From Acidobacteriota bacterium (GTDB lineage Bacteria; Acidobacteriota; Vicinamibacteria; Vicinamibacterales; UBA2999): a stretch of DNA of 56,322 nucleotides. Below the pieces are notes generated by a model that searched no databases, was not told the DNA's origin, and saw nothing but the letters and a program-made list of their open reading frames with translations. This document shows, in pieces, positions 1,042-51,489 of the stretch. How positions within the stretch are numbered: the first letter of the stretch is position 1; the number at the start of each line of letters is the position of its first letter. The position numbers were made by a program, and so were the translations under genes. The DNA lies in the NCBI GenBank assembly GCA_016184455.1, contig JACPCS010000131.1:1-56322 (forward strand), read 5' to 3'.

Positions 1042-1065
1042 CCAGGGAGCATTCGAAACGCAGCA

Positions 1066-33960: not shown

Positions 33961-34092
33961 GTCCGGCTGAAGAGCCTGTGAAGAAATCGCTTCCTTGCAT
34001 GTGGGGCGGGCCTTGTCAGGCCCGCCCGGCGAACCCGAAGGGTTCGCCCCACATCAATCGAAGCGATTTCTTCACAGGCTCTGAAGCCGGAC
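33961..34092. repeat. Three-layer nested inverted repeat
   Basis: Outer arms GTCCGGCT (33961-33968) and AGCCGGAC (34085-34092). Middle arms 33971-33993 and 34060-34082 are perfect inverses over 23 bases and begin with AGAGCCTGTGAAG. The centre (34001-34052) is a 52-base double-hairpin repeat closed by GTGG/CCAC, with stems GGCGGGCC/GGCCCGCC and GGCGAACCC/GGGTTCGCC. It lies between the stop of the NHL gene and the start of the small ORF at 33941. Read as RNA it would form a long cruciform, and it may also stop transcription of the NHL gene. Confidence 0.8.
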
Positions 34093-34106
34093 ACCACGTA
34101 CGAGGA

Positions 34107-35207
34107 CTATTTGACCTTGACGTACTTGCGCAAACGGTGCGGGCCGACGTCCGCCGCGTAGATGGTGCCCATGTCGTCGGCGACAATGCCCGACGCCCCG
34201 GAAATCCGGTTCACGTCCGCCTCGGCGAGGTCGGGATCGGGAATGAAGGCGCGCAGCGAGCCGTCGATGGCGCTTCCCACGGTGATGCCCCGGAGCTTGC
34301 CCGGATTCACCTTTGAGTTCGACTGGGAGTCGCTCACGTAGAGCGTGTCGTCCTCCGACACAAAGACCGCGCTCGGCCGCCCGAACTGCGTCCACGCCGC
34401 GATGAACGTGCCGTCCTGATCGAAGACCTGCACTCGATTGTTCGAGCGGTCGGCCACGTACACCCAACCGCGTGAGCCTCCGAGCGAGATGTCGTGCGGC
34501 TGGTCGAACTCGCCCGGCCCCGATCCATGACGTCCCCACGCCTTGGTGAACCGACCGTCTTTCGAGAGTTTCACGATGCGGTCGTTCTTGCCGTGGCCAT
34601 CGCTCACGAAGATGTCGCCATTGGGCGCGACGGCGATGCCGGTCGGCCGATCGAACGTATCCGGACCGTTCCCTGCCACGCCCGCCCTGCCGAGCGTCAT
34701 CAACAGCCTGCCGGTGGGGCTGAACTTGAAGACCTGATGCCCGCGCAGGACGCCGTCCGGGCCGCGCGCGGAGATCCCGAGCACGGTCTCATCCGCGTTC
34801 GCGTCGCTCGTCCAGATGTTCCCTTCGCCGTCGACGGTGAAGCCGTGCGGGAACGCGAACAGGCCTCTGCCGAAGCTGGTCAGCAGCCGGCCCGACGGAT
34901 CGAACTGCAGAATCGGCGGCTCGGTCCGCCCGACGCAGGTGGCGGCACCGGCAGGCTCGGTGTTGAAGCAGCGATGAAAGACCCAGATGTTCCCCTTCGA
35001 ATCGAGATCAGCGCGGATCAACTCTCCCCACCGCCCTCCGTTCATGCTCGCCGGAAGTGTCGGCCACCCTTCCACGAGCCGATACGGGTTCGGCAGTCGC
35101 GTCTGAGGCGTCGATTGAGGGGCGGTTTGCGATCGGGCCACGCCCGATCCGATGACTGTCGCAATGACGACGACACCCGTAAATGCCGGACGAGCTCTGT
35201 GCGACAT
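34107..35207 (-). CDS. NHL-repeat exported protein
   Basis: This 366-residue exported protein starts at the ATG at 35207 with a signal peptide (MSHRARPAFTGVVVIATVIG). The mature part has the family opening NPYRLVEGWPTLPASMNGGR and then six NHL-type blades: GKNIWVFHRCFN-like (SKGNIWVFHR), FPHGFTVDGEGNIWTSDAN, TFDRPTGIAVAPNGDIFVSDGH, EFDQPHDISLGGSRGWVYVADRSNNRVQ, GRPSAVFVSEDDTLYVSDSQ and GIVADDMGTIYAADVGPHRL. It resembles peptidyl-alpha-hydroxyglycine lyase-type propellers without a clear lyase site. It is upstream of a large inverted repeat. Function unknown; a binding or lactonase-like role is possible. Confidence 0.8.
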   Translation of the reverse strand: MSHRARPAFTGVVVIATVIGSGVARSQTAPQSTPQTRLPNPYRLVEGWPTLPASMNGGRWGELIRADLDSKGNIWVFHRCFNTEPAGAATCVGRTEPPILQFDPSGRLLTSFGRGLFAFPHGFTVDGEGNIWTSDANADETVLGISARGPDGVLRGHQVFKFSPTGRLLMTLGRAGVAGNGPDTFDRPTGIAVAPNGDIFVSDGHGKNDRIVKLSKDGRFTKAWGRHGSGPGEFDQPHDISLGGSRGWVYVADRSNNRVQVFDQDGTFIAAWTQFGRPSAVFVSEDDTLYVSDSQSNSKVNPGKLRGITVGSAIDGSLRAFIPDPDLAEADVNRISGASGIVADDMGTIYAADVGPHRLRKYVKVK

Positions 35208-35221
35208 GGCGCGCGCCCTCT

Positions 35222-35253
35222 GTTCGGATCGTTCGGGACGTTCGGATCGTTCG
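35222..35253. repeat. Nine-base tandem repeat (GTTCGGATC)
   Basis: Plus strand: GTTCGGATC (35222-35230), GTTCGGGAC (35231-35239), GTTCGGATC (35240-35248), GTTCG (35249-35253). On the minus strand it ends 14 bases before the NHL start codon, so it lies in the leader or promoter region of that gene. Confidence 0.65.
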
Positions 35254-35370
35254 CCCGCAGTGCAGACGCTACGCCTTCTTGGCGCCATGCGCAACAGCCG
35301 TTGGAGTTCGCCCTCACCACGCGCCGTGGGCCACGCCTCGCACCGGTCAACTGGATGCGAACGCCCTGCC

Positions 35371-36612
35371 TCAGGTGTGCAGCAGCGCTTCGACACGGAT
35401 CGCCGTGCGCAGCAGCCGCGCGTCCTCGCCGCGATCGGCCGTGAGCTGCAGGCCCAGCGGGAGACCCTCGTGCTCGCCCATCGGGATGGTGATCGCGGGC
35501 GTGCCGAGCGCGGTCCAGGGCGAGTTCATGCGGGGATCGCCGGTCGAGGCAAGGCTGAACGGTGCCGGCCCCACCGCCGCCGGCACGAGAATCACCGGTG
35601 TGGTCCTGTAAGTGTGAGTCATGCGGTCACGCCCCGCCGCGATCGTGCGCCGTGCCTCATCGTAGCGACCCTTCGGGACGCGCCGGCCCTCGCGCACGAG
35701 GCTGGCGATGTCCGCGAGCCGGTCGCCATACTGCTCGTAGCGCTCGCGATGGACGATGGCCGCTTCGTACGCCATCACGATGCGCGCCTCCGCGTGGAGC
35801 TCCGCGAGCATGCCCGCAAGATCGAGCGGCTGGATCGAGACGCCGGCGGTGCGCAGGCGCACGACAGCTTCGCGCAGGGCCGCGGCCATCGACGGGTCGA
35901 CATCGGGCAGCGGCTCCGAGACGCCAAAGACGAGGCTTGTGGGGCGAGCCTTGTCAGGCTCGCCGCGCGAACCTGAAAGGTTCGCGCCACGACTCCCGTA
36001 GGGCAGCGCGTCCCACAATGCCAGCATGTCGGCCGCCGTCGTGGTGAAGAACCCGAGCGTGTCGAGGCTCGGTGCGAGGGGCAGCACGCCCTCGAGCGGC
36101 ACGAGGCCGTAGGTCGGCTTGAAGCCGGCGATCCCGCAGAAGGAGGCCGGCCGCAGCACGGATCCCAGCGTCTGCGTACCGAGCGCGAAGGGCACCATGC
36201 CCGCCGCCACGGCGGCCGCCGACCCGCTGGAGCTGCCGCCCGGCGTGTGCTCCAGCTTGCGCGGGTTGCGCGTCGGCGCCGGCGTCCGGTAGGCAAACGC
36301 CGTGGTCTGCGTTTTCCCCATGAGGATCGCGCCGCGCTGCCGCAGCTCGCGGATGACCGCCGCGTCCTCGGTCGCAATGCGGCCCTCATAGATGGGCGAC
36401 CCGTATTCGGTGGCGAGCCCGCGCGTCTCGATGATGTCCTTCGCGGCGAAGGGAACGCCGGCGAGCGGGCCGTCGCCGGTGGCCGGCTGCGGCGACACCT
36501 GCACCCACGCATGAATCGACGGATCGAGCGTCCGGATGCGGTCGAGGCAGGCGGCCCGCGCGCGCTCACGCTCCTCGCGCGGCGCGCGCAGCCAGTCAGT
36601 GAGGCGGTTCAC
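35371..36612 (-). CDS. Amidase signature family enzyme
   Basis: This 413-residue protein begins at a GTG overlapping the stop of the NHL gene upstream (GTGA). The catalytic Lys58 is in GVPFAAKDIIETRG, the GGSSSGSAAAVAAG loop holds the cis-Ser (about 126-131), and the nucleophile is Ser151 in GTQTLGSVLRPASFCG. This is a soluble amidase of the aspartyl-glutamyl/allophanate-like group; the substrate is unknown. Residues about 208-225 (ANLSGSRGEPDKARPTS) are not family sequence. They are encoded by a 52-base repeat (35939-35990) that keeps the reading frame. The enzyme may tolerate this loop, since it lies after the active-site core. Confidence 0.85.
   Translation of the reverse strand: MNRLTDWLRAPREERERARAACLDRIRTLDPSIHAWVQVSPQPATGDGPLAGVPFAAKDIIETRGLATEYGSPIYEGRIATEDAAVIRELRQRGAILMGKTQTTAFAYRTPAPTRNPRKLEHTPGGSSSGSAAAVAAGMVPFALGTQTLGSVLRPASFCGIAGFKPTYGLVPLEGVLPLAPSLDTLGFFTTTAADMLALWDALPYGSRGANLSGSRGEPDKARPTSLVFGVSEPLPDVDPSMAAALREAVVRLRTAGVSIQPLDLAGMLAELHAEARIVMAYEAAIVHRERYEQYGDRLADIASLVREGRRVPKGRYDEARRTIAAGRDRMTHTYRTTPVILVPAAVGPAPFSLASTGDPRMNSPWTALGTPAITIPMGEHEGLPLGLQLTADRGEDARLLRTAIRVEALLHT
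35939..35990. repeat. Double-hairpin repeat inside the amidase gene
   Basis: GTGG (35939-35942), stem GGCGAGCC (35943-35950), loop TTGTCA, GGCTCGCC (35957-35964), second stem GCGCGAACC (35965-35973), loop TGAAA, GGTTCGCGC (35979-35987), closing CCAC (35987-35990). It has the same 52-base length and order as the copy at 34001-34052. Confidence 0.85.
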
Positions 36613-37703
36613 CGCGTCGCGGAGCTCACTCCCAGGAACGTGAACTTCTGCACGCGTCGATTGACGGGCTGAAGCGGCGTGACCTCCGTGGTGTAGAGGT
36701 TCCCCTTCGAGTCGATGTTCATGTGGTGGAGCGTGCCGAACTCGCCCGGCGCCGAGCCCCAGCGCCCGAACTCGTCGAGGCGCGTGAGCGTGCGCCGATC
36801 GAAGATCATCAGCTTCGCCTGGCTCCGGTTCGCCACGTACAGGAACCGCTGCTGCGGGTCGGCCGAGAACGCCGTGCTCGCCGCCGTCGTGCCGTTGCCG
36901 CAGGCGGGCGCCTTGCACTCCCGCCCGATGAACACCTGATTGACGTACGTGCCGTCGAGGCGGAACACCTGCACGCGCTTGCCGCCGCGGTCCGACACGT
37001 AGACGAGACCGTCCCTCGAGACGCGCACCGCGTGCACCGGCTGGACGAACTGCGGCGCGCCCTTCGGGTCGGCATCCGCGTCGGCCTGTGGGCCGTCGGT
37101 CGGCCGATTGCCGAATGCCCCCCACATCCGCTTGACCCGCCCGGTCTCGGCGTCGAACACCGCGATGCGGCGGTTGCCATACCCGTCGGCCACGAACAGC
37201 TCGTTGGTGGGCGCGTGCAGGAACGCATCGGCGGGCCGATTCAGATTCTGCGTGTCGGTGTTGCCCTTGCTCTGCCCCGCCCGGCCGATCTGCATCACGA
37301 ACGTGCCGTCGCGCGTGAACTTGACGACCTGGTGATCCTTCTCGCCGTTGCCCCCAATCCAGACGAACCCCTTCGGATCGACGTAGATGCCGTGCTCGAC
37401 CTCGGGCCACTCGTAGCCGGCGCCCGGGCCACCCCAGCCCTGGATGAAATTGCCGGCGGCGTCGAACTCGAGCACGGGCGGCGCGGCCCTCTTCTTCTCG
37501 GCCGGGTCCTCGAGCGAGCCGGGGCGCTGCAGCACCCAGACGTGGTCCTGCGCGTCGATCGAGACGCTCGACACCTCGCCGAGCACCCAGTTGTCGGGAA
37601 TCTTCGGCCAGGACGGATCCGGCTTGAAGCGCGGCACCTCGCGGGTCTGTGCGAGCGCCGCGGCAACGGAGAGCATCACGAGCGCGCCAACGAGCTTCTT
37701 CAT
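36609..37703 (-). CDS. NHL-repeat exported protein
   Basis: This 364-residue protein has a signal peptide (MKKLVGALVMLSVAAALAQ) and mature FKPDPSWPKIPDNWVLGEVSS. The six-blade NHL arrangement is visible: SIDAQDHVWVLQRPGS, YEWPEVEHGIYVDPKGFVWIG, LNRPADAFLHAPTNELFVADGYG, FVQPVHAVRVSRDGLVYVSDRGG, ADPQQRFLYVANRSQAK and TLHHMNIDSKGNLYTTEV. It is similar in plan to the product at 35207, and both are followed closely by another gene on the same strand. The amidase starts inside its stop codon. A GGGGAG site stands before the ATG. Function unknown. Confidence 0.8.
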   Translation of the reverse strand: MKKLVGALVMLSVAAALAQTREVPRFKPDPSWPKIPDNWVLGEVSSVSIDAQDHVWVLQRPGSLEDPAEKKRAAPPVLEFDAAGNFIQGWGGPGAGYEWPEVEHGIYVDPKGFVWIGGNGEKDHQVVKFTRDGTFVMQIGRAGQSKGNTDTQNLNRPADAFLHAPTNELFVADGYGNRRIAVFDAETGRVKRMWGAFGNRPTDGPQADADADPKGAPQFVQPVHAVRVSRDGLVYVSDRGGKRVQVFRLDGTYVNQVFIGRECKAPACGNGTTAASTAFSADPQQRFLYVANRSQAKLMIFDRRTLTRLDEFGRWGSAPGEFGTLHHMNIDSKGNLYTTEVTPLQPVNRRVQKFTFLGVSSATR

Positions 37704-37714
37704 AACGGCTCCCC

Positions 37715-37761
37715 GGCGGGTCTACCTCGCCTGCCGTACGCCGCGCTCGGCGAGACCCGCC
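37715..37761. repeat. Inverted repeat with GGCGGGTCT arms
   Basis: GGCGGGTCT (37715-37723) pairs with AGACCCGCC (37753-37761); inside, CTCGCC (37726-37731) pairs with GGCGAG (37749-37754), the two registers being partly alternative. It shares ACCCGCCCTACG with the hairpin at 8093-8114. It lies in the gap between the formamidase stop and the NHL start, both on the minus strand. Confidence 0.55.
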
Positions 37762-37775
37762 CTACGTACGAATGT

Positions 37776-38795
37776 CTATTTCGCGAAGATCGATTTCGGG
37801 ATCATCGCGTGCACCCCCTTGGTGCCGTCGACCAGCTGCGTGACGCGCAAGTCGATGGCGACCGACGTGAGAATGTACGCCTCGTCCCGCGACAGCTTCT
37901 TCTCCATCACGAGGAAGTCGATCGCCTCGCGCGTGGCAAGCTTTGACGCCTCGTCGAGATCGGGATGCAGCCCCATCGCGATGTAATGCGTCGGCGTCTC
38001 CGCGCGCGGCCAGTTCAGCCGCATCCCCTTGCGGAGGATCACCTGGACCGTGCCGCGCACCGACGTCTCGATGCCGGTCAGCGTCACCTCGCCGTCGCCC
38101 TGACGGGCGTGCGCGTCGCCCAGCGAGAGGAGCGCGCCCGTCACGTGCACCGGGATGAAGAGCGTGGAGCCGGCCGTCAGTTCCTGGTTGTCCAGGTTGC
38201 CGGTGTGATGGCCCGGCGGCCCGCTGGAGACGCGCCTGACGATCGGATTCGGCGCGACGCCGATCGACCCGAAGAACGGCCGGAGCGGGAGCGTGATGCC
38301 CGGTGCGAACTCAGTGACGCCGCGCGCGGTGTCGAACCGGAACAGCTTGAACCGCGAGTACGGGAAGTCATCCGGCAACGTGCCGCTGCCCGGAATGAAG
38401 CCGGTCACGCCAAACGGGTGCAGGAACTCGAAGCCGAGGATCCGGACTTCGAGTACGTCCCCCGGTTCGGCACCTTCGACCCAGATCGGACCGGTCAGCG
38501 GATGCGCACCGGGACCCCGCTCGGTCACAGCCGCCTCCACGACCTTCATCGAGTCGGGGATCTCCGCATCGGAGACTCCCGCCGCACGCAACCGTGCGAC
38601 GCCGCCCGCGAGCATCGTCTCGACGCGCACCGTGTCGCCGGACGCCATGCGGAGCACCGGCTTCAGCGTGGCGTCGTAGTAGCCCCAGTGCACGTGCTGC
38701 GGCAGCAGCCGCAGCTCATGCGTCTGACGCGACTGCGATGAGGCGAGCGGCGCGAGCAGGACTCCCGCCGCCGCAATCAGCAGGACCTTTTTCAC
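37776..38795 (-). CDS. Acetamidase/formamidase family protein
   Basis: This 339-residue protein starts at a GTG overlapping the previous stop (GTGA) and carries a signal peptide (MKKVLLIAAAGVLLAPLASS). Family motifs are HELRLLPQHVHWGYYDATL, GPIWVEGAEPGDVLEVRIL, PFFGSIGVAPNP, GPPGHHTGNLDNQEL, LLSLGDAHARQGDGEVTLTG and LRKGMRLNWPRAETPTHYI. The acidic and His residues of GDAHARQGDGE are the catalytic and zinc-site region in FmdA. The enzyme should hydrolyse formamide-like substrates in the periplasm. It follows an Abhydrolase_10 gene with coupling. Confidence 0.87.
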   Translation of the reverse strand: MKKVLLIAAAGVLLAPLASSQSRQTHELRLLPQHVHWGYYDATLKPVLRMASGDTVRVETMLAGGVARLRAAGVSDAEIPDSMKVVEAAVTERGPGAHPLTGPIWVEGAEPGDVLEVRILGFEFLHPFGVTGFIPGSGTLPDDFPYSRFKLFRFDTARGVTEFAPGITLPLRPFFGSIGVAPNPIVRRVSSGPPGHHTGNLDNQELTAGSTLFIPVHVTGALLSLGDAHARQGDGEVTLTGIETSVRGTVQVILRKGMRLNWPRAETPTHYIAMGLHPDLDEASKLATREAIDFLVMEKKLSRDEAYILTSVAIDLRVTQLVDGTKGVHAMIPKSIFAK

Positions 38796-40882
38796 CGGCT
38801 GGTGTTCTGGGTGGCCAGCACGTTGCTCGCCTGCGCTGCCGCAATGAGCCGGTCGGCGTCGGTCTGCAGCAGGAAGCCCTCGCTGACGGCTTTGGCGGCC
38901 GCCGCCTTCACCGCGTCGACGTAGCCGTCGTGATTCCTGTAGCGCTCCTCGAGCGACGGCCGCGGATCGTTGTTCGCCATCCGCTCCGCTCTCGTCGTCG
39001 CAAACGGGATCATCCCTGCCGCGTAGTTGCAGATCTTCCCCTTGTGGAATCCGTCGGCGACGATGTTCCACCCGAGGTAGGTGCCGAGCGGCGCTTCGCG
39101 CAGCACGATGGGCACGCCGCCCAGCTCGTTGCCGTCGGCGTCGACGCGCGGCACCTTCATCTTGATCACGTGCTTCACGGCCGGCGGCATCTTCGTCGGC
39201 ACGCCGGAGCCCTCCATGTAGTTGAAGTTCGGACCCCAGTCGTAGTCGAGCATCGGGCTGACGATGGAGGCCGGCGCGCCGGCCGGCACGCCCGGAACGG
39301 CCGGGAAGCCGGTGGCCGACGGATCGACGAGATGGCCGTTCGCCAGGCTGGGGAACCGGCTCGGCGGCGGCGCCACGTCCTTCATCACCCAGGTGCGGAA
39401 GTGGACGCGCAGCGCGTTCGTCGTCTCGGTGTACGGCATCGGGTTCGCGGAATATATCCCGCGCCCGAAGGCCGGACCCGGGCACTGCGGCGGCTTCGCG
39501 GCGACGACTGAAAATCCGCCGGGGCCGCCGCCATGCGGCGTGCTCGGCATGTAGTAGCGCCGCACATTGGCCGGCAGCGGAATATCGCGCTCGGCCGTCG
39601 TGCCCACCCAGCTCGGGCTCATGTAGAGCGCCCACGCTTCCGTGCCGCCCAGCTGCTCCATGATCTTGGGACACGTGTTCGTCGCGTTGCAGCGATCGAG
39701 AACGCTCGCGGCCTGGAGATTCCGTACCGGGTCGGCCCACGGCGTCCACCATGCTGGCCCTTCCATGCCGCCCTCGTACAGCTTCGACGCGGCGTCAGGC
39801 GTGGCGAATCGCACGTTCAACGGCAGGCGGCCCGACGCGATGATCGGCCACATGCCTGCGTACACCTGCCGGTTGCGCTCGTCCTGATTGAAGCCGAGAT
39901 GCAGAAGCTGGCGGAGGAAGCGGCCCGACTGCGAGCGGCCGCGGCTGATCACCCACGTGATGCGATTCGCCACCGGATTCATCGCCCCCGCCTCGTCGCG
40001 GTCCACGTGCTCGAAGAAGGAGGCGACGTCGCGGAACGCGGCGAAGCCGATCCCCAGCACAGAGGGATCCTGCGCCGTGAAGACGACCTGATAGAGCAGC
40101 GTGGGATCGAAGCCGCCCTTGACGCAGATCTGCGTCGGATCGGGCGTGCCCGGAAACGGATTCGACGCGCTGCAGCGCGCCCACGCCCAGTCGCTCGCCG
40201 GAATCGTCCGCACGCCGCTCACCTTGCCGTCGATCGTCTCGGCCGTGTGCGTCTCGAGCCGCGCCTTCGTCGTGTCGAGCGCCACCGGCTTGTAGGGCAC
40301 CGGATTGGCGTTGACGATGAGCGGCTTCGAGTCGGGGCCGCTCGCGTTGACGATGCGGCCGAACACGAGGCCGGTGACGGGCGAGCCGTCCGGATTCTTC
40401 GCCATCGGCACGATCGCATAATCGTTGTCGTCGTCTGGAGCGGTGTTGCCCGAGTTGTCGCCCTGCCAGCCGCTGCTCAGACCGATGTCGCCGAGCGCGC
40501 GTTCGGCCTCTGGAATCGTGATGCGGCCGCCGCGGTTCGGGACGTCGTGCCACATCAGGCCGCTCGCCTTGGACATGTCGATCGGCTTGACGAGATAGAA
40601 GGTCGCGACGTACTCGACCTTGCCGTTCGCATTGCGCGGCGCCAGCTGGAGGTCGGTGATGACCCGGTTGTGCGGATCGTTCGGATCGAGCTCGCCGAAC
40701 GCGCGCCCAGCCAGCGTCTCGTACTGACCGGCGCTGCCGAACGTCCGGCCGTCGAACGCCGGCGACACTTTCTTGTCGATGACGATGCGCTTGATCTCCG
40801 CCTGCGCGGGCTGCGCCGCCGCGACCAGGGCGACCAACGCCGCGGCCGCCCACGGGAACCGGTATGAGACGTGAGACGCCAT
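38792..40882 (-). CDS. Secreted alpha/beta hydrolase, Abhydrolase_10 family
   Basis: This 696-residue protein starts at the ATG at 40882 because AGGAGG lies eight bases upstream; it has a signal peptide (ASHVSYRFPWAAAALVALVAA). The fold's nucleophile elbow is GRSQSGRFLRQLLHLGFNQD, with the Ser-Gln-Ser-Gly variant typical of this family (the first Ser of SQS acts as nucleophile). DYAIVPMAKNPDGSPV, GGMEGPAWWTPWADP and YYMPSTPHGGGPGGFSV are further conserved segments. Substrates are unknown. The formamidase gene starts inside its stop codon, so they share an operon. Confidence 0.82.
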   Translation of the reverse strand: MASHVSYRFPWAAAALVALVAAAQPAQAEIKRIVIDKKVSPAFDGRTFGSAGQYETLAGRAFGELDPNDPHNRVITDLQLAPRNANGKVEYVATFYLVKPIDMSKASGLMWHDVPNRGGRITIPEAERALGDIGLSSGWQGDNSGNTAPDDDNDYAIVPMAKNPDGSPVTGLVFGRIVNASGPDSKPLIVNANPVPYKPVALDTTKARLETHTAETIDGKVSGVRTIPASDWAWARCSASNPFPGTPDPTQICVKGGFDPTLLYQVVFTAQDPSVLGIGFAAFRDVASFFEHVDRDEAGAMNPVANRITWVISRGRSQSGRFLRQLLHLGFNQDERNRQVYAGMWPIIASGRLPLNVRFATPDAASKLYEGGMEGPAWWTPWADPVRNLQAASVLDRCNATNTCPKIMEQLGGTEAWALYMSPSWVGTTAERDIPLPANVRRYYMPSTPHGGGPGGFSVVAAKPPQCPGPAFGRGIYSANPMPYTETTNALRVHFRTWVMKDVAPPPSRFPSLANGHLVDPSATGFPAVPGVPAGAPASIVSPMLDYDWGPNFNYMEGSGVPTKMPPAVKHVIKMKVPRVDADGNELGGVPIVLREAPLGTYLGWNIVADGFHKGKICNYAAGMIPFATTRAERMANNDPRPSLEERYRNHDGYVDAVKAAAAKAVSEGFLLQTDADRLIAAAQASNVLATQNTSR

Positions 40883-40918
40883 GCGAAGCCTCCTCATGTG
40901 AGCCAAATCCTAGCACGC

Positions 40919-40964
40919 AGCCAAGGGGCTCCGCCGCTTGATATCTGCGCGGAGCCCCTTGGCT
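40919..40964. repeat. Perfect 16-base inverted repeat
   Basis: AGCCAAGGGGCTCCGC (40919-40934), 14-base loop, GCGGAGCCCCTTGGCT (40949-40964). It lies upstream of the Abhydrolase_10 gene start on the minus strand and could be an operator or an element end. Confidence 0.75.
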
Positions 40965-41000
40965 GGTTGCCAGTATCTTCTGCCGCGCGTCGCGCGGCTG

Positions 41001-41062
41001 GGACCGCTATGCGGGCGGACGCAACGAGTACGAAATTCGCGTTCCGGGCCGCATAGCGGTCC
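41001..41062. repeat. Perfect 14-base inverted repeat
   Basis: GGACCGCTATGCGG (41001-41014) pairs with CCGCATAGCGGTCC (41049-41062) across 34 bases. Together with the repeat at 40919 it makes a compact, palindrome-rich region. The arms share no obvious sequence with the other repeats. Confidence 0.75.
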
Positions 41063-41208
41063 AATGCGCATCGCACCCAACGTGCAATCCACGTGTCACC
41101 TCGCGTGATTCACCGGCGGCGTGTACCGCGTCGATCGCGCCGACGATCTCGACTTCCTGTCTTCCACCTTCGGGAAGCACCTCCGATGAGGAGAACGCCC
41201 GGCGGCGG

Positions 41209-43085: not shown

Positions 43086-43142
43086 GTTTGCCTCCTTGCC
43101 AGGCGGTGGTCGGTCGCTCGTAGCGGGTTCAAGGTTCCGGTT

Positions 43143-43178
43143 CTGGCTATCAGCTACCACCTACCGACTACCAGCTAG
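43143..43178. repeat. Degenerate heptamer array
   Basis: Plus strand units TATCAGC, TACCACC, TACCGAC, TACCAGC and TAGGG. As at 12751-12785 the array begins inside the TAG stop of the preceding minus-strand gene (here the flavoprotein) and leads to the next gene. Both arrays contain TACCACC. Confidence 0.6.
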
Positions 43179-44476: not shown

Positions 44477-45810
44477 TAGGTGTACCGGATGCCTCGGTGT
44501 TCGGGCTTGAAGAAGTGCGGCAGGAGCGCGTCGACTCGAAGCAGGCCCTCGCGCGACAGCGCGACGACCTCCGGTGTGGCGATCTGCAGGTAGCCGTGCG
44601 CCGCGAGCCACGCGATCGGCTCGCGGAAGCGGCTCAGGATGTCGACGGCGTATTTGTCGCGGAAATACGACGGCCGAATCGATCCGAACTTGAGCTGCAG
44701 CACCACCTCGCGAATCATCCGCTCCTCGTCGGTCGGCCGGTACGCGCGCCCGAGCGCGGGCGCACCGCCGCGGATCGCGGCGCTGTACGCCTCCCACGTG
44801 TCGAGGTTCTGCATGTGGACGCCGTTGACGTGGCCGAACGACGCCACGCCGAGGCCGATCATGTCGGCGCCCTGCCAGAGCCGATCCGTGTAGACGAAGC
44901 GCGTGCGAGCGCGGTCGCGGACGGCCGTATACGCGCTGCGGACGTGGTACCCGACCGCCTCGAGCGCCTCGAACGCCTCGGCCACCCAGCGCCGCTTGGT
45001 TGCCCAGTCGGCGACCGGCTCCAGGAACTGGCCGCTGCCCGTCAGCAGGTCGCGGCTGATCGTCGTGTTGAACGGCAGCTCCATCTGATAGATGGTGACG
45101 CTGTCGGGCGCGAGCGCGAGCGTCGTGCGGACGCATGCCTGCCAGTTCTCCTCCGTCTCGCCGAGCATGCCGGCAATGAGATCGACGTTGATCTGCGGAA
45201 AGCCGAGCGCACGCGCCTGTTCGTACGCGCGAAACATCTCAGGCGACCGGTGCGCGCGGCCGTTCAGCTCCAGGATGCGATCGCTGAAGTTCTCGATCCC
45301 GAGACTGAGGCGCGTGACGCCGATGCGGCGGATGGCCTCGAGCTTCGCCTTCGTCAGCGTGCCCGGCTCGCACTCGAACGTCACTTCCTCCGCCTCGTCC
45401 CAGGCCCGCGTCCGCGTCAGCCGCGTCACGAGCGATTCGAGCTGCTCGGTCGAGAGGAACGACGGCGTGCCGCCGCCGACGTAGATGAAGTTCAGCGGCC
45501 GGCCGGCGAGCGCGGGCCGGTCGGCGTACAGCTCCCATTCGCGCGCGAGCACGTCGAGATAGTCGGCCACCTCGCGCGCGTTCCGGTCTGTATAGACGCG
45601 GAAGTAGCAGAAGTGACACCGCTTGCGGCAGAACGGAATGTGGAGGTACAGCCCGAGTGGGGTGCCTGGCACCGGCGGGGCGTCGAGCGCCGGCCGCGCG
45701 TCGCTCTCGACGGCCGCCTTCGTCCACACCGAGAACGGCGGATACGTCGCGACGAAGTAGCTGCCGACCTCGGTCGGTTCCTCGACGACGACGGGCAGAC
45801 GGTCTGTCAT
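44476..45810 (-). CDS. HemW-like radical SAM protein
   Basis: This 444-residue protein has the radical SAM cluster Cys61-x3-Cys65-x2-Cys68 in LYLHIPFCRKRCHFCYFRVY. FIYVGGGTPSFLSTEQL (the GGGTP motif that binds SAM), EVTFECEPGTLTKAKLEAI and RLSLGIENFSDRILELNGR match the coproporphyrinogen oxidase/HemW superfamily, and INVDLIAGMLGETEENW follows. A HemN-type C-terminal domain with GLGVASFGHVNGVHMQN is present. It probably handles heme or a related tetrapyrrole or methylates a small substrate. A possible -10 (TATACA) lies eight bases before the ATG. The coupled flavoprotein suggests a two-step pathway. Confidence 0.87.
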   Translation of the reverse strand: MTDRLPVVVEEPTEVGSYFVATYPPFSVWTKAAVESDARPALDAPPVPGTPLGLYLHIPFCRKRCHFCYFRVYTDRNAREVADYLDVLAREWELYADRPALAGRPLNFIYVGGGTPSFLSTEQLESLVTRLTRTRAWDEAEEVTFECEPGTLTKAKLEAIRRIGVTRLSLGIENFSDRILELNGRAHRSPEMFRAYEQARALGFPQINVDLIAGMLGETEENWQACVRTTLALAPDSVTIYQMELPFNTTISRDLLTGSGQFLEPVADWATKRRWVAEAFEALEAVGYHVRSAYTAVRDRARTRFVYTDRLWQGADMIGLGVASFGHVNGVHMQNLDTWEAYSAAIRGGAPALGRAYRPTDEERMIREVVLQLKFGSIRPSYFRDKYAVDILSRFREPIAWLAAHGYLQIATPEVVALSREGLLRVDALLPHFFKPEHRGIRYT

Positions 45811-45847
45811 CGGTGCTCTGTATACGCCAGAGCACGCCGCAGCTGTT

Positions 45848-46216
45848 TCACTTCAGCGTCACCATGTACATGGCGTGACAATCCTTCGTCAGGTCCTGCT
45901 CGACCGTCGTCTTCCGGGTGTCCTTCGTGATGTCGTAGGTCAGACGCCGGCCTCCGAGCGGCAGCCCCTCCACGCGCGCTTTGCCGTCGGAGTTGGTGCC
46001 GACTTCCAGATCCATGCGCTTGAGGCTCATGAAACCGTAGCGGATCCGGACGTGCACCGTGGCGGCATAGACCGGCTTCCCATCGGCGTCCGCGACCGTG
46101 AAGTCGGCCGTACACATGCCGAGCCTGGCGCTGATCGTCGCCAGATCGGGCTTCTTCGGCGGCTCCGCGGTCTGGCCGCCGGCCAGCAGCAGCGCAACGA
46201 CGATGGCGGTAGTCAT
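45848..46216 (-). CDS. Small exported protein with an Ig-like domain
   Basis: This 122-residue protein has a signal peptide (MTTAIVVALLLAGGQTA) and a single beta domain: FTVADADGKPVYAATVHVRIRYG, LKRMDLEVGTNSDGKARVEGLP, RRLTYDITKDTRKTTVEQDL and AMYMVTLK. This matches the carboxypeptidase regulatory-like/ Ig-like fold used by secreted proteins of unknown job. The ATG overlaps the DinB stop by four bases (ATGA), so it is co-translated with DinB. Confidence 0.7.
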   Translation of the reverse strand: MTTAIVVALLLAGGQTAEPPKKPDLATISARLGMCTADFTVADADGKPVYAATVHVRIRYGFMSLKRMDLEVGTNSDGKARVEGLPLGGRRLTYDITKDTRKTTVEQDLTKDCHAMYMVTLK

Positions 46217-46722
46217 ACCGACTTGGCTCCCATCTTGCGGTAGTACGTGGTGAGATCGGTGCTCTTCGGCGGCGCCGCGCCGAGCTGCCGGAGCAGCGTG
46301 GTCACCTGACCGCGATGGTACGACGCATGGTTCACCACGTGCTGAATCATGTGCCACAGCACCGAGGCGCCCGGCTGACCGTTCAGCAGCTTGTACGAGA
46401 TCACGCGCTCGAGGCCGTGATCGTCGACGCCGTCGACGAAAGCCCGCATCCGCTTTTCATGGTCACGCCACGCCTGACGGACCGAGGCGAAGGTGGGAAA
46501 CGTGTCCGGCGTCGGGAGCGCCGTCGGCACGTCGCCGTGCCACCGCGCGTACCAGATCCATTCGGCGCCGTAGATGTGCGCCAGCGTATCGCGCACCGAG
46601 CGGAAGCTGCCGCCCAGCTCGCGCGTGAACTGCTCCGGCGTCAGCGCCTCGACGGCCTCGAGCATGCGGTCGCGCGCCCAGTAGTGATAGTCGATCAACG
46701 TGCGGACGTCACGATTCTTCAT
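46213..46722 (-). CDS. DinB family metal-binding protein
   Basis: This 169-residue four-helix bundle begins MKNRDVRTLIDYHYWARDRM and carries TLAHIYGAEWIWYARWHGD and LWHMIQHVVNHASYHRGQVTTLL, the three His positions (about H49, H132-H136, H140 region) that bind a metal in DinB/YfiT proteins. Related proteins include thiol-transferases that use mycothiol or bacillithiol. Its role here is not fixed. The length is normal. It stands between a thioesterase and a small Ig-like protein on the same strand. Confidence 0.82.
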   Translation of the reverse strand: MKNRDVRTLIDYHYWARDRMLEAVEALTPEQFTRELGGSFRSVRDTLAHIYGAEWIWYARWHGDVPTALPTPDTFPTFASVRQAWRDHEKRMRAFVDGVDDHGLERVISYKLLNGQPGASVLWHMIQHVVNHASYHRGQVTTLLRQLGAAPPKSTDLTTYYRKMGAKSV

Positions 46723-46766
46723 GGATGCATCCTCACGCGGGCCTGGGCCTCTCTGACCCGGCGTCG

Positions 46767-47183
46767 TCATTCCGTGGCCACCTGAAATCGTGACGCGAAC
46801 GACGCCGGGATCGCAACGGCCTTCATCGGCTCCCCCGGCCGATGGCTGACGCAGGCAATGGTCATCGCGCCGGTGGCGATTCGCGTGTCGCCGCGCGTGA
46901 CCTCGCACGCGTAGCGAATCGTCTTCTCTCCGATCGCGGCAATGCGGATGGAGACGTCGAATTCCTCCTCGAAGCGAAGCGGCCGGCGGTACTCGAACGA
47001 GGCCGCCACGCGCGGGAAGGCCAGCCCGGCGTCGTGCGCCGCGATGCTGAGCCCCGCCTCGCGCCACAGCCCGTGCTCGGCCTCCTCCATGTAGCGGAAG
47101 AACCAGCTGAAGTGCACGATGCCCGCAAAGTCCACCTCGTAGAACTGCACCCGCCGCCGCAGCCGGAACTCAGAGACTGGCAT
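46767..47183 (-). CDS. Acyl-CoA thioesterase, hotdog fold
   Basis: This 138-residue protein is a 4HBT-type hotdog: RRRVQFYEVDFAGIVHFSWFFRYMEEAEHGLWREAG with Asp-Phe-Ala-Gly-Ile-Val-His as the catalytic Asp-x-x-G-x-V-x loop, then YRRPLRFEEEFDVSIRI. It would hydrolyse acyl-CoA or acyl-ACP esters in the cytoplasm. The ATG lies 14 bases inside the end of the tag gene, so the two are coupled. Confidence 0.85.
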   Translation of the reverse strand: MPVSEFRLRRRVQFYEVDFAGIVHFSWFFRYMEEAEHGLWREAGLSIAAHDAGLAFPRVAASFEYRRPLRFEEEFDVSIRIAAIGEKTIRYACEVTRGDTRIATGAMTIACVSHRPGEPMKAVAIPASFASRFQVATE

Positions 47184-47772
47184 GGCGCCGGGCGCGCGAG
47201 GCGCGTGCGTACCGGAAGCAGGTGACGAGGTGATCGTCGACGAGGCCGACGGCCTGCATGAACGCATAGCAGATCGTCGAGCCGACGAAGCGGAAGCCGC
47301 GGCGCCGCAGGTCGCCGCTGAGCGCATCCGACTCGGACGTGCGCGCCGGGATGTCGCGAAGCGCGCGCCAGGCGTTCTGTTTCGGCCAACCGTCGACGAA
47401 CCGCCACACATAGCGATCGAACGACCCGAACTCCTCCTGCACGTCGAGAAACGCCCGTGCGTTGGCGACGGCGCTCTCGACCTTCAGCCGGTTGCGGACG
47501 ATGCCGGGATTGTCGAGGAGCCGTTCGACGCGCGACGCCGCAAAGCGCGCCACGCGCGACGGATCGAAGCCGGCAAACGCCGCGCGATACGCGTCGCGCT
47601 TGCGCAGGATCGTCTCCCAGCTCAGTCCCGCCTGGGCGCCCTCGAGAATGAGGAACTCGAACAAGGTGCGATCGTCGTGTACCGGCACGCCCCATTCCTG
47701 ATCGTGGTACGCCATGCTGAGCGGCGTCCGCGCCCAGTCGCAGCGCGCGCGGCGTATGGGGTCGGAGGTCAT
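47170..47772 (-). CDS. tag: DNA-3-methyladenine glycosylase I
   Basis: This 200-residue protein matches TagI: RCDWARTPLSMAYHDQEWGVP at the N-terminus and GSTICYAFMQAVGLVDDHLVTCFRY at the end. The zinc ligands would be Cys11, His23, His181 and Cys185, matching the four of the E. coli enzyme. LEGAQAGLSWETIL holds the catalytic region. The enzyme removes 3-methyladenine from DNA in base-excision repair. The start ATG and the first six residues (MTSDPI) are encoded by one arm of the inverted repeat at 47756-47839, so the repeat supplies the start of this gene. It may once have started a few codons later. Confidence 0.92.
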   Translation of the reverse strand: MTSDPIRRARCDWARTPLSMAYHDQEWGVPVHDDRTLFEFLILEGAQAGLSWETILRKRDAYRAAFAGFDPSRVARFAASRVERLLDNPGIVRNRLKVESAVANARAFLDVQEEFGSFDRYVWRFVDGWPKQNAWRALRDIPARTSESDALSGDLRRRGFRFVGSTICYAFMQAVGLVDDHLVTCFRYARASRARRHASL

Positions 47773-47839
47773 TTTTCGAGGACAGTCCAGGAATAGTCGG
47801 TCGTCGCGACTGTCCTCTAAAAATGACCTCCGACCCCAT
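47756..47839. repeat. Long inverted repeat with GGGGTCGG arms
   Basis: The arms 47756-47787 and 47808-47839 are inverse over 32 bases with one mismatch. They begin ATGGGGTCGGAGGTCATTTT and flank a 20-base centre. Each arm carries ATGACCTCCGACCCCAT on one strand, which encodes MTSDPI. It provides the start codon of tag and the stop codon of the hydrolase at 47817. The core resembles the palindrome at 22399-22423. Confidence 0.85.
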
Positions 47840-48974
47840 TAAGCCAGCGCGCCATGAGCGCGGCGATCTCGTGATTGTTCTTCTCCAGCATCATCATGTG
47901 TCCGTTGCCGCGAATCCCGGCGTCGGCGAGGCGGACCCACGTCGGGCGGACGCCCGCCTGCTGCAGGTACTTGACCGTGCAGTGGTCGTACGGCGCGTGA
48001 TACGACGCCTCTCCCGTCAGCACGAGCGTCGGCACGCCCGCCAGCTTCGGCAGCCGCCGCGCGGGCGCCCGCTGCAGCCAGCACCGCACGAGATCCGGTC
48101 CGTCCGGGCGTTCGTCGCGCACGATGGCGAGCTCCGACGGCTTCGCCGCGGGCGGATCGTAGGTCAGCGGCACCGCGGTGACGCCCCACACGTTCACGGC
48201 CGTGGACGCGTCGCGAAACCACTCGGGCGCGGGCACGTTCTCCACCGCGAAGAACGGCGGCCCGTTCGGCTCCACCGCCACAATCGCCTTCACGAGATCG
48301 GGGCGCGCGTCGGCCACCGGCCAGCCGAACGCGCCCGACTGGGAGTGCGTCAGCAGGATCGCGGGGCCGATCCGTTCCAGCAGGGCGACGATCGCGTCGC
48401 GGTTGAGCGTCTGCTGCAGTGCGAAGCCCTGGATGGACGGCAGTTGCGAGGCGAGGAACTGATCGAACGCCGCGTCGCCGGGCGCACCCGACCCCGGCCA
48501 CTGCGTATGGAGGCGCGCCTGCGGCCACAGCGTGAAGCGCTCCGGCGCGATGAAGCGCCGCTCGATCGTGTCGAGATTCAGCTCGGTCGCCGGCCCGTAG
48601 ACGCTCGCGTCGTAGGCCGCGCGGCCGCGTCCCGGCTGATCGACGACGTACACGGCGTAACCCTGACGCAGAAAGAACTGCGCCCATCCCTCGCGCCCAT
48701 CCGGAGTGCCCGTGAAGTTGGTCCCCGACTGGCCGCCGCCGTGGACCATGACGATCGGCCAGCGGCGCGCCTGGTGTGCGGGTATCTGGAATTCCGCGTA
48801 GAGGTGCCCCGACAGCACGCGGCGGCCGTTGATCGTCGAGTACGTGCCGCCCGCGAACAGGTACCCTTGCCGCGCGATCGACAGCGGCGGCGGCGCCTGC
48901 GCGGCGAGACCGGCAGCCGACGCGACGAGCGCCGCGATCGCGATCAGGGCGCGGACGGCCGTGTGCATCCTCAT
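47817..48974 (-). CDS. Secreted alpha/beta hydrolase
   Basis: This 385-residue protein has a signal peptide (MRMHTAVRALIAIAALVASAAG). It has an oxyanion-hole segment PIVMVHGGGQSGTNFTGTPDG and the nucleophile region GPAILLTHSQSGAFGWPV, with Ser211 in HSQSG (a Ser replaces the second Gly of GxSxG). His residues in the last third (ADAGIRGNGHMMMLEKNNHEI) are candidates for the catalytic base. The last residues (NGVGGHF) and the stop are encoded by the inverted repeat at 47756-47839. It is divergent from the gene at 49139. An esterase or lactonase is likely, but the substrate is unknown. Confidence 0.83.
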   Translation of the reverse strand: MRMHTAVRALIAIAALVASAAGLAAQAPPPLSIARQGYLFAGGTYSTINGRRVLSGHLYAEFQIPAHQARRWPIVMVHGGGQSGTNFTGTPDGREGWAQFFLRQGYAVYVVDQPGRGRAAYDASVYGPATELNLDTIERRFIAPERFTLWPQARLHTQWPGSGAPGDAAFDQFLASQLPSIQGFALQQTLNRDAIVALLERIGPAILLTHSQSGAFGWPVADARPDLVKAIVAVEPNGPPFFAVENVPAPEWFRDASTAVNVWGVTAVPLTYDPPAAKPSELAIVRDERPDGPDLVRCWLQRAPARRLPKLAGVPTLVLTGEASYHAPYDHCTVKYLQQAGVRPTWVRLADAGIRGNGHMMMLEKNNHEIAALMARWLNGVGGHF

Positions 48975-49054
48975 GTGACTCTGCCTCCCGTACGCCGGGG
49001 CCTTTCGGACCCGGCAGCGACAGTGATTCAGGTCGGCGCTGGTTGTCAATTATC

Positions 49055-49083
49055 TTGACTCCCTGCCGGACGGGGCGTTCAAT
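49055..49083 (+). promoter_or_regulatory. Possible promoter of the 49139 operon
   Basis: TTGACT (49055-49060), 17 bases, TTCAAT (49078-49083). The -35 is close to consensus and the -10 is weak. The leader to the ATG would be about 50 bases. The opposite strand here is upstream of the hydrolase. Confidence 0.3.
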
Positions 49084-49138
49084 ATGCCGCAGTCGAAGCT
49101 GTACGCGCGGTCGAGCCCTTTCCGGGGGGTGTGGTCAG

Positions 49139-49954
49139 ATGCGAAGCCGGTTCACTCGGTGGGTGATCGTCACGGCCGCGTTGCCGGCCGCCTTTTCGCT
49201 GTCCGTCGCGTCCGCCGCTGCGCAGACGACGTATAAAGCGCCGCGGACAAGCGACGGCAAGCCCAATCTGAGCGGCATCTGGCAGGCCATCACCGAAGCC
49301 TACTGGGACGTCGAGCCGCACGCCGCAGCCATGGGCCCGGTGCCCGCGCTCGGCGCCGCCGGCGCGATTCCACCCGGGCTCGGCATCGTCGAGGGCGGCC
49401 GCATCCCGTACCTGCCGGCTGCTGCGGAGCAGAAGCGCAAGAACTTCGAGAACCGGATGACGCTCGATCCGGAGATCAAGTGCTATCTGCCCGGCACGCC
49501 GCGCGCGATGTACATGCCGTACCCGTTTCAGATCATCCAGACGCCGAAGCACATCATGATGGTCTTCACGTTCGCTCGCGCCGTGCGGACCGTCTACATG
49601 GACGATCAGACGGATGCGCCGGCCGACAGCTGGATGGGATGGTCGAACGGCCGCTGGGAGGGCGAGACGCTCGTGGTCGAGACCTCGGGCTTCAACGGCA
49701 TGACGTGGCTCGATCGCGCGGGCAACTTCCACAGCGATGCGCTGAAGGTGGTCGAGCGCTTCACGGCGACCGGGCCCGACCATCTGCTGTACGAAGCGAC
49801 GCTCGAGGACCCCAAGACCTTCTCAAAGCCGTGGAAGATCAGCATGCCGATCTACCGGCGGCTCGAGAAGAACGCGCAGCTCATGGAGTTCCGGTGCGTG
49901 GAGTTCGCCGAGGATCTGATCTACGGCCACCTCCGGAAGCAGCCGACGCAGTGA
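49139..49954 (+). CDS. PDGxPNLxGxW secreted protein
   Basis: This 271-residue protein has a signal peptide (MRSRFTRWVIVTAALPAAFS). The mature part contains SDGKPNLSGIWQAITEAYWD, IKCYLPGTPRAMYMPYPFQI, DAPADSWMGWSNGRWEGETL, VVETSGFNGMTWLDRAGNFH, SDALKVVERFTATGPDHLLY and LEDPKTFSKPWKISMPIYRR. This is the same subfamily as the product at 22436: they share CYLPGxPRAxYMPxPFQIxQT, the DRAGNFHS segment and a C-terminal EFRCVEFAEDLIYGHL. The second module (49139-51428) thus repeats the order of the first in part. Function unknown. Confidence 0.82.
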   Translation: MRSRFTRWVIVTAALPAAFSLSVASAAAQTTYKAPRTSDGKPNLSGIWQAITEAYWDVEPHAAAMGPVPALGAAGAIPPGLGIVEGGRIPYLPAAAEQKRKNFENRMTLDPEIKCYLPGTPRAMYMPYPFQIIQTPKHIMMVFTFARAVRTVYMDDQTDAPADSWMGWSNGRWEGETLVVETSGFNGMTWLDRAGNFHSDALKVVERFTATGPDHLLYEATLEDPKTFSKPWKISMPIYRRLEKNAQLMEFRCVEFAEDLIYGHLRKQPTQ

Positions 49955-49976
49955 GCACCTGAAAGAGAGGCGCCAG

Positions 49977-50999
49977 ATGCGCTACCGAGTTCCTGTCAGT
50001 GTCATGGTCGTCCTCGCAGTCATGCTGTCGGCCACTGTCGCCGCCGCTCAGGGCGCGGCGACGGGCAGAGCCACGGCGGAAGCGCGCGGGTACAAGGCGC
50101 CGCGCACGCCAGATGGCCAGCCCGATCTGCAGGGCTACTGGACGAACTCGACCTACACTCCGCTCCAGCGGCCCCCGGAGATCAACCGCGAGTTCTTCAC
50201 GCGTGAGGAAGCCATCGAGATCATGAAAAAGGCGGCGGCGGCCGAGAGCGAGCAGACGACGCCCGGCACGATCGCCGACGTCCACTACGACTTCACGCAG
50301 TTCGGGCTCGACCGCAACCAGGGCGGCGTGCCGCTGAACATGCGCACGTCGCTCATCTTCGATCCGCCCGACGGCCGGCTGCCTCCGCTCACCGCCGAGG
50401 GGAAGCGGCTCGCGGCCCAGCGCGCCGAGGCGCGCAAGCGCATGGGCGGGCCGTGGGACGCCGCGCAGAACCAGTCGTTCAGCGTGCGCTGCATTCTGAT
50501 GGACCGCGCGGGGCCGCCGATGCTCCCTGGCGCGTACAACAACTTCTACCAGATCATCCAGGCGCCGGGGTACGTGATGATCCTCGTCGAGATGATCCAC
50601 GAGCCGCGGATCATCCCGCTCGACCGCCGGCCGCACCTGTCGGGCAACGTCCAGCAGCTCACGGGCAATCCCGTCGGCCGCTGGGAAGGCGACACGCTCG
50701 TCGTCGAGTCGACGAACTTCACCGACCAGAACCCGTTCGCCCAGGGCGCGAGCGAGAAGATGCGGCTCACCGAGCGCTTCACGCGCGTCGCCGAGGATCG
50801 GATCCTCTACCAGTTCACCATCGATGACCCCGCCGTATGGGCACGTGCGTGGTCGGCGGAGCTGCCGATGATGAAGACCAACGGGCCGATCTTCGAGCAC
50901 GCGTGCCACGAGGGGAACCGCAGCCTGTACAACGCGCTGGCCGGCGCGCGCGCCGATGAGACGCGCGCGGCCGAGGCCGCGAAGAAGTCCTCGCAGTAG
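49977..50999 (+). CDS. PDGxPDLxGxW secreted protein
   Basis: This 340-residue protein has a signal peptide (MRYRVPVSVMVVLAVMLSATV). The mature motif is APRTPDGQPDLQGYWTNSTY. Family segments: SLIFDPPDGRLPPLT, VRCILMDRAGPPMLPGAYNN, FYQIIQAPGYVMILVEMIHE, PVGRWEGDTLVVESTNFTDQ, EKMRLTERFTRVAEDRILYQ and IDDPAVWARAWSAELPMM. It is the closest relative of the product at 21469 in the window. It lies between another family member and DUF6152 with short gaps of 22 and 12 bases, so all three are probably one operon. Confidence 0.82.
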   Translation: MRYRVPVSVMVVLAVMLSATVAAAQGAATGRATAEARGYKAPRTPDGQPDLQGYWTNSTYTPLQRPPEINREFFTREEAIEIMKKAAAAESEQTTPGTIADVHYDFTQFGLDRNQGGVPLNMRTSLIFDPPDGRLPPLTAEGKRLAAQRAEARKRMGGPWDAAQNQSFSVRCILMDRAGPPMLPGAYNNFYQIIQAPGYVMILVEMIHEPRIIPLDRRPHLSGNVQQLTGNPVGRWEGDTLVVESTNFTDQNPFAQGASEKMRLTERFTRVAEDRILYQFTIDDPAVWARAWSAELPMMKTNGPIFEHACHEGNRSLYNALAGARADETRAAEAAKKSSQ

Positions 51000-51011
51000 G
51001 AGAGACGCCTT

Positions 51012-51428
51012 ATGACCATGAACCGCGCCATTCTGTGGGCCGCATTCGGTGTGCTGCTCGCCGCCGCACCGCTCCGCGCGCATCACTCGTTCGCAGCGGA
51101 GTTCGACGTCACCAAGCCGATCAAGCTGACCGGCAGCCTCGTGAAGTGGGAGATGATCAACCCCCACTCGTGGTTCCACATGGACGTGAAGGGACCGGAC
51201 GGTCAGGTCGTCCGCTGGATGATCGAAGGCGGGAGCCCGAATCAGCTGATCCGGCTCGGCGTGACGAAGAACACACTGCAGGTCGGCACCGAGTTCGTCA
51301 TCGAGGGGTACCTGGCGCGCGACGGCACGAACAAGGCGGTCGGCCGCAATTTCATCCTCGCCGACGGCAGGCGGTTGTTCCTCGGCGGATCGGTGCCGGG
51401 CGGCGACGGCGCGCCGATCGTCAGATAG
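51012..51428 (+). CDS. DUF6152 family exported protein
   Basis: This 138-residue protein has a signal peptide (MTMNRAILWAAFGVLLAAAP) and the mature start HHSFAAEFDVTKPIKLTGSL followed by KWEMINPHSWFHMDVKGPDG. It matches the copy at 21066 over most of its length and is more similar to it than to the copy at 26794. The sequence GTAGGAGAG before the ATG is its ribosome-binding site. A double-hairpin repeat (51437-51489) lies nine bases after its stop. Confidence 0.85.
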   Translation: MTMNRAILWAAFGVLLAAAPLRAHHSFAAEFDVTKPIKLTGSLVKWEMINPHSWFHMDVKGPDGQVVRWMIEGGSPNQLIRLGVTKNTLQVGTEFVIEGYLARDGTNKAVGRNFILADGRRLFLGGSVPGGDGAPIVR

Positions 51429-51436
51429 GCACGCAT

Positions 51437-51489
51437 GTGGCGCGAACCCTTCGGGTTCGCGCGGGGCGAACCTGAAAGGTTCGCCCCAC
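51437..51489. repeat. Double-hairpin repeat, inverted copy
   Basis: GTGG (51437-51440), stem GCGCGAACCC (51440-51449), loop TTC, GGGTTCGCGC (51453-51462), then GGGGCGAACC (51463-51472), loop TGAAA, GGTTCGCCCC (51478-51487), closing CCAC. Read on the minus strand the order of the two hairpins matches the other copies. It lies between two converging genes and could end both transcripts. Confidence 0.85.

Follow-up and report, generated by a model that had tools for sequence, protein, structure and literature searches.

Double-hairpin repeats in the window

The 56,322-nucleotide stretch of DNA analysed here (contig JACPCS010000131.1 of an Acidobacteriota bacterium, assembly GCA_016184455.1; hereafter the window) carries three copies of a short repeat made of two hairpins. 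Copy 1 (52 nt; 34001-34052, plus strand; 80.3 bits under the covariance model described below) lies between two minus-strand genes, as read from the window's list of open reading frames; copy 2 (52 nt; 35939-35990, plus strand; 78.3 bits) lies inside the reading frame of an amidase gene; and copy 3 (53 nt; 51437-51489, minus strand; 76.9 bits) sits in the 68 bp that separate the convergent stop codons of frames 51012-51428 (plus strand) and 51497-52510 (minus strand), with both flanks classed as coding by a codon model. All three share one layout of GTGG, hairpin a, a short spacer, hairpin b and CCAC, which in copy 1 corresponds to a GTGG tag at 34001-34004, hairpin a at 34005-34012/34019-34026, hairpin b at 34028-34036/34040-34048 and CCAC at 34049-34052. 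The unit joins two unlike repetitive extragenic palindrome (REP) hairpins in inverted orientation, both of which bear a GTGG tag at the 5' foot, and this is the structure of a REPIN, an inverted REP doublet. The initial annotation had given the coordinates, the lengths of 52, 52 and 53, the closing GTGG/CCAC and the order of the two hairpins exactly as we find them; its view that the repeat could not be assigned to a named REP is corrected here to a REPIN with GTGG tags. It is also extended by two findings, namely that copy 1 forms the core of a longer nested palindrome (33961-34092) and that copy 2 lies within the amidase frame.

When folded as single-stranded DNA, the copies reach z scores of -16.0 (copy 1 with its outer arms), -5.95 (copy 2) and -6.98 (copy 3), and for none of the three did any of 200 shuffles attain the native stability. 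None of the three copies matched Rfam, the sole window match above the gathering score being a group II intron at 930-1042, and a riboswitch or other known RNA was ruled out on this ground.

Copy number, stem pairing and tags

We located copies first by a loose pattern and then by a covariance model built on 15 copies from the window's genome (G000; 4.73 Mb in 162 contigs, 92.8% complete). The model places the repeat at 28 sites in this genome at E<=1e-5 and at four weaker ones up to E 0.01; the 15 model-building sequences are among the 28 and match by construction, and among the remaining 13, 12 share a core that scores identically (84.2 bits). Ten of the 59 genomes searched (G000 counted) match at E<=1e-5, all of them in the window's family, and at E<=0.01 the number is 18, six of these being weak matches in other families of the same order. 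Within the one family, the number of matches per genome varies between zero and 73, both strands counted, the latter corresponding to about 36 copies. A survey across the phylum detected the repeat in two of 199 genomes, G000 and its congener G001; since the draw held few members of the window's family and the filters were stricter, this says only that the repeat family is not widespread. The congener has one copy at E<=1e-5 and none at the sites matching window copies 2 and 3 (for copy 3, after the matching stop codon), a comparison of empty sites that covers these two copies, the surroundings of copy 1 not being alignable to G001.

The copies are mostly extragenic, as expected of REPINs. For 83 copies, 79 of them with full flanks, the flanking sequence was classed by a codon model whose training set was 20 long reading frames from the window; it placed 15, 22 and 28% of the 79 within coding sequence in one frame at thresholds of 10, 8 and 5; by the same measure, the values for 1689 control points were 56, 60 and 65%. 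Thus, with 22% of copies against 60% of control points in coding sequence at threshold 8, the copies avoid genes.

Differing but paired stems, read in the initial annotation as compensating changes, are borne out across the wider family. Among 14 distinct G000 copies, 98.6% of the cells in the alignment are paired and two-sided changes occur at 5 of 21 pairs; among 53 distinct copies from nine genomes (drawn from 83 listed, 30 having been dropped as duplicates or for odd length, N or an end pattern that did not fit), these values are 99.2% and 10 of 21. The structure was defined from the consensus, a choice that favours the percentage paired, and RNAalifold recovers the same structure unaided from the 53-copy alignment. 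Two-sided cells in this alignment number 89, as against a shuffle mean of 25.1 and 0 to 7 in slid versions, with no clear excess of further pair types over shuffles (60/500 for the 53 copies; 477/500 for the 14). Neither an absence of further copies nor a loss of stem pairing, the two outcomes named beforehand as speaking against such a family, was seen: there are 28 places, and 99.2% of cells pair. Of the proposal that the folded form is what is selected or copied, the kept pairing stands, and either selection or copying may lie behind it; if a master is copied and a transposase recognises it, no host function need be invoked to account for the pairing.

GTGG stands at both ends in 26 of the 28 G000 copies, the other two having one end off pattern, in keeping with the GT[AG]G rule. 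The same holds for 12 of 14 copies in G005, 4 of 6 in G013, 4 of 4 in G016 and the single copies in G001, G003, G010 and G014. The genome G015 departs from this rule: GCGG is found at both ends in 21 of its 27 copies, four are mixed GCGG/GTGG and two have one end off pattern. By these counts, the two tag ends mostly change jointly; 33 rows of the alignment have the tag pair as T-A, 15 as C-G and three as T-G, and in two it is unpaired. The base preceding the tag is T or C at 114 of 128 ends (64 copies with distinct flanks).

A REP-associated tyrosine transposase gene among the repeats

The window's genome encodes two Y1 transposases, on contigs C140 and C20. The C140 gene (L044:3786-4253; 155 residues, with a GTG start that was our assigned choice) scores 101.7 bits under the NCBIfam profile REP_Tyr_transpos (NF047646; cut-off 80; scanned from 3816) and 24.9 bits under the IS200 model NF033573, below the cut-off of 55 for IS200/IS605, and its closest PDB match is 4er8 'TnpArep' (E 3.3e-6). 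It possesses the HUH motif PDHVH and a single Y motif, YVLDNPVR, and is flanked upstream by a degenerate repeat copy, whose end is about 84 bp away, and downstream by an intact one that starts after about 23 bp. Family profile, HUH motif, single Y motif and REPs on both sides together identify it as a REP-associated tyrosine transposase (RAYT). Its nearest relative among the 59 genomes, on C150 of G015, is 57% identical and lies between three consecutive REPINs and two further copies, one full and one weak (33.9 bits), so that repeat and RAYT gene are neighbours at two loci, G000:C140 and G015:C150. The three REPINs at the latter (L201:1313-1554) directly adjoin the RAYT gene as a tandem array whose unit recurs about every 95 bp.

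Several other RAYT relatives lie next to hairpin repeats of a different kind, tagged GTAG or GGAG (e.g. L069, L071, L073, L075, L080 and L083), and others show no such hairpins. The eleven top-ranking named records that hold a related RAYT come from Acidobacteria, which makes an acidobacterial host likely. These relatives, combined with the C140 and G015 loci, place the window's repeat among the REPIN-RAYT systems described in PMC3116915, PMC3733652 and PMC6006769. Like the REPINs of Pseudomonas fluorescens SBW25 (PMC3116915), the unit here is made of two inverted REPs and clusters, also in tandem, by a RAYT (here in G015); unlike them, as that paper describes them, its hairpins are separated by a very short spacer, its two REP stems differ from each other, its tags are GTGG or GCGG, its hosts are likely acidobacterial and many of its copies are in-frame. 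A tyrosine transposase flanked by REPs also recalls the REPtrons of the GTAG superfamily (PMC3733652). The acidobacterial transposases named in that source (from K. versatilis, T. saanensis, A. capsulatum and G. mallensis) are TIRYTs, in contrast to the REP-flanked RAYT found here, and the passages on Acidobacteria in the literature consulted gave us TIRYTs and class 3 transposases, and no description of a REPIN. By sequence, the closest solved structure is that of E. coli TnpAREP (4er8; PMC8266576, PMC6006769), and the C140 RAYT shares with it a WQ...R motif like that described for tag contact; unlike E. coli REPs as these sources present them, the stems here are perfect, without a bulge, and the tag is GTGG or GCGG rather than GTAG. 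Our analysis adds a REPIN-RAYT system with REPs flanking the transposase gene on both sides, in a likely acidobacterial family. The literature already describes REPtrons, GTGG tags and REPs that are read in-frame; the repeat family, the tag switch and the nesting are new.

The second tyrosine transposase, on C20 (L048:5845-6519), was set aside as a mover of the repeat: it scores 64.9 bits against the cut-off of 80, and other inverted repeats of about 30 bp flank it by eye. These inverted repeats contain GGGGTCGGAGGTCATTTTT, and the locus (L048:5760-6540) is likely a separate RAYT-like insertion sequence.

Proposed mode of spread

We conclude that the repeats are very probably REPINs and that the RAYT encoded between two of the copies likely spreads them through the genome by copying them as single-stranded DNA. 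We propose that when a single strand is exposed, each hairpin would fold, the RAYT would read the 5' tetranucleotide and the hairpin, its tyrosine would cut beside them, and the excised strand would be joined elsewhere. The stems would stay paired because copies descend from a few masters and are recognised by the transposase. Copies would survive mainly between genes or in-frame in tolerant protein loops, with other insertions purged by host selection. This scheme needs no host function for the repeat. The initial annotation had suspected that the folded repeat is mobile and goes with a RAYT-type transposase, and the many further copies, the compensated stems and the copy-bracketed RAYT gene here and in one relative bear this out at the level of sequence.

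Several observations weigh against this conclusion. Of the 30 RAYT loci fetched, out of 36 matches listed, only L059 and L060 carry the repeat with a score of at least 51 bits; matches at L069 and some others are weaker, and most RAYT loci lie beside different hairpins or none. Among the loci fetched, no repeat-RAYT pairing was seen in the eight other repeat-bearing genomes, and four of the ten repeat-bearing genomes (the congener G001, G003, G010 and G016) have no such RAYT at E<=1e-10. Copies therefore need no present RAYT, and RAYT loss or assembly gaps are possible reasons for its absence from these four genomes. Movement of the repeat is proposed here from sequence comparison, and in the sources cited the mobility attributed to RAYTs rests on in vitro cleavage and population reads. 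Finally, a dehydrogenase pair with and without the repeat (see below) was compared as proteins only, a comparison in which insertion and excision are not distinguishable and for which collapse of a palindrome during assembly is a possible alternative.

Among other explanations, the best placed, which we nevertheless regard as improbable, is that the repeat is a host element (a transcript 3' end, terminator, mRNA stabiliser or regulatory RNA) held by selection at every place. The hairpins are very stable in folding, and copy 3 lies between convergent stops, a usual site for REPs with such proposed roles according to PMC3733652 (section 15). Against this, the three copies lack an Rfam match, some copies are in-frame within genes, the congener lacks copies 2 and 3 at the matching places, and no T run follows the hairpins of the window copies by eye (no terminator scan having been made). 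A host element is also hard to square with match numbers that vary from none to 73 on both strands across the genomes of one family.

Nested palindromes

Copy 1 is the centre of a 108-bp palindromic insert (33973-34080) with inverted ends of about 21 bp (AGCCTGTGAAGAAATCGCTTC), flanked, as read from the sequence, by the 6-bp direct repeat CTGAAG on the left (33967-33972) and on the right (34081-34086). The insert splits the loop of a member of a second, single-hairpin REP family on the minus strand (33961-34098; GTGG tag at 34094-34097, GTGGTGTCCGGCTTCAGCCGGACC), and the uninterrupted hairpin of this GTGG-tagged family, GTCCGGCTGAAGCCGGAC, is whole at 10 of 14 fetched places. A second 108-bp insert with its outer hairpin is found at G000:C99:10067-10198 and is 95% identical; both arrangements may go back to a single event that was then copied. 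With inverted ends and a CTGAAG target duplication at two loci, the 108-bp element qualifies as a miniature inverted-repeat transposable element (MITE). At 13 places in G000, the REPIN is enclosed by a different outer palindrome, TAGCGCGGATTT..AAATCCGCGCTA. The 12-mer TAGCGCGGATTT has 19 exact sites, each of which adjoins one of these 13 REPINs, and of its seven one-mismatch sites four are elsewhere. No empty outer palindrome with the exact pattern was found in 43 genomes of the family, and insertion of the repeat into a pre-existing palindrome is thus only a possibility for this 13-copy subfamily.

The two kinds of outer palindrome, with the 6-bp direct repeat around one of them, are what would be expected if the copies were MITEs moved by a DDE-type insertion sequence and the RAYT between them were a bystander. 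We consider this still less probable than a host element: copies 2 and 3 and seven others (on C85, C112 twice, C140, C6, C56 and C68) have neither outer arm, these nine show no flanking duplication by eye, and two RAYTs that are 57% identical both lie among copies.

Nesting is also seen in the opposite direction, with another hairpin element inside a REPIN loop in two weak G000 copies (C46 and C139) and in three of the 27 listed in G015 (C136 twice, C64). In G015, a double-hairpin repeat, CCCTTCGACAAGCTCAGGG..TCGAGGGA, lies within the loops of REPIN arms (L223, L224 and L225). The border and middle trinucleotide of this CCCTTCGACAAGCTCAGGG repeat equals the REPIN loop entered (TGA, CGA) in two of three cases, a match compatible with chance. 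Insertion sequences that target REPs have been described (PMC1525189).

Copies inside genes

At threshold 8, 24 copies have coding sequence on both sides, in 20 cases on one strand, and the frame is kept in 17 of these 20 (one third being expected for random lengths; p 2.8e-6); other thresholds give 22/26 (5), 12/15 (10) and 7/8 (15). One of the 17 frame-keeping copies contains an internal stop, and two of them, L275 and L280, represent one gene in two genomes. A special coding design of the repeat, stop-free in all frames, was ruled out, with 4.88 of six frames open as against 4.62 in shuffles.

The amidase gene that harbours copy 2 (PF01425; 35371-36621, minus strand; its frame is taken from residue 264 of a long open reading frame, with a provisional start) reads through the repeat in-frame, gaining about 18 codons (SRGANLSGSRGEPDKARPT) in a variable loop where the G001 amidase has no repeat. 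A like peptide occupies the same loop in one of the 119 other homologues listed (P0003, 84% identity), a count in which rows 31 to 120 were inspected where they held a set motif or a long loop, so that inserts in other reading frames may escape it; a nine-residue loop is found in 50 of the 120. A closer comparison is offered by two dehydrogenases (of the 2-furoyl-CoA type by their source names), P0122 and P0124, which are identical at 807 of 807 aligned residues except for 17 repeat residues, LVARTLSGSRGEPDKAR. P0125 and P0126, about 97% identical, also lack the repeat insert and differ by another insert of six residues. P0124, P0125 and P0126 all retain PT, which in the filled gene is encoded by the last bases of the right REP. 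This retained PT resembles the asymmetric excision footprints of SBW25 REPINs, whose excision spared the final ~6 bp of the right REP (PMC3116915). The two otherwise identical proteins are a clean case of a palindrome present or absent in-frame within an enzyme.

The least probable alternative is that in-gene copies are selected protein modules rather than tolerated insertions: LSGSRGEPDKARPT-type peptides do recur in one dehydrogenase loop (6 of 120 listed homologues) and one amidase loop (2 of 120, queries counted in both), but the loops are hypervariable with many unrelated inserts, an otherwise identical dehydrogenase does without the insert, and stop-freeness barely exceeds that of shuffles. 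These two loops (P0002-P0121 for the amidase, P0122-P0241 for the dehydrogenase) hold many in-frame repeat-like inserts, including PTPNSQ/PTPNGQ units, VGRVPRPFVGHRAADPP and RRGGPSGPP, and it is as if such hypervariable loops act as sinks for several repeat families.

Translated REPs have precedents. In-frame REPs are described in PMC3733652 (section 15) and PMC6006769 (section 13), and REP dimers within reading frames of other species encode 20-30 residues (PMC3733652). In behaviour only, the copies can also be likened to the Rickettsia palindromic elements RPE-1, RPE-4 and RPE-6, palindromic repeats translated in-frame (PMC3733652, section 15). The same section assigns RPE-4 and RPE-6 to the CGTC repeats, a class reported without association to a transposase gene, unlike the repeat studied here, which has an adjacent RAYT.

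Possible landing sites and tag recognition

For the REPINs that we take to be copied by a RAYT, we tentatively suggest a further reading, one more likely wrong than right. In this bacterial family, one mobile palindromic element might land in the hairpin loop of another, and permissive loops of proteins might shelter further copies, giving rise to 'Russian-doll' palindromes and recurrent in-frame inserts; over the same time the tag and the RAYT would co-evolve (GTGG to GCGG, together with WQEGFYERVLR to WQEGYHDWVLR). The two peptides are the tag-contact-like motif in the C140 and the G015 RAYT, respectively. In E. coli TnpAREP, residues W94 (whose role is unclear), Q95, E100, H101 and R104 are discussed in relation to the tag (PMC6006769, section 14); a correspondence between these positions and the WQEG motif, drawn by eye on one protein pair, is a possible lead. 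If true, this reading would provide a natural record of change in REP specificity and of protein remodelling by RAYT-borne palindromes. The natural pair of RAYTs with GTGG and GCGG tags is useful for studying the evolution of tag recognition.

Other elements in the window

A separate, larger double-hairpin repeat family is represented in the window by a 147-bp sequence with two long hairpins (40918-41064), which has only sub-threshold matches in Rfam. In the congener G001 it is found at nine places at 90-97% identity (one of partial length) and at two more at 78-80%. The group II intron RNA (930-1042, minus strand; Rfam RF00029, 45.1 bits) adjoins a long reading frame at 913-2931.

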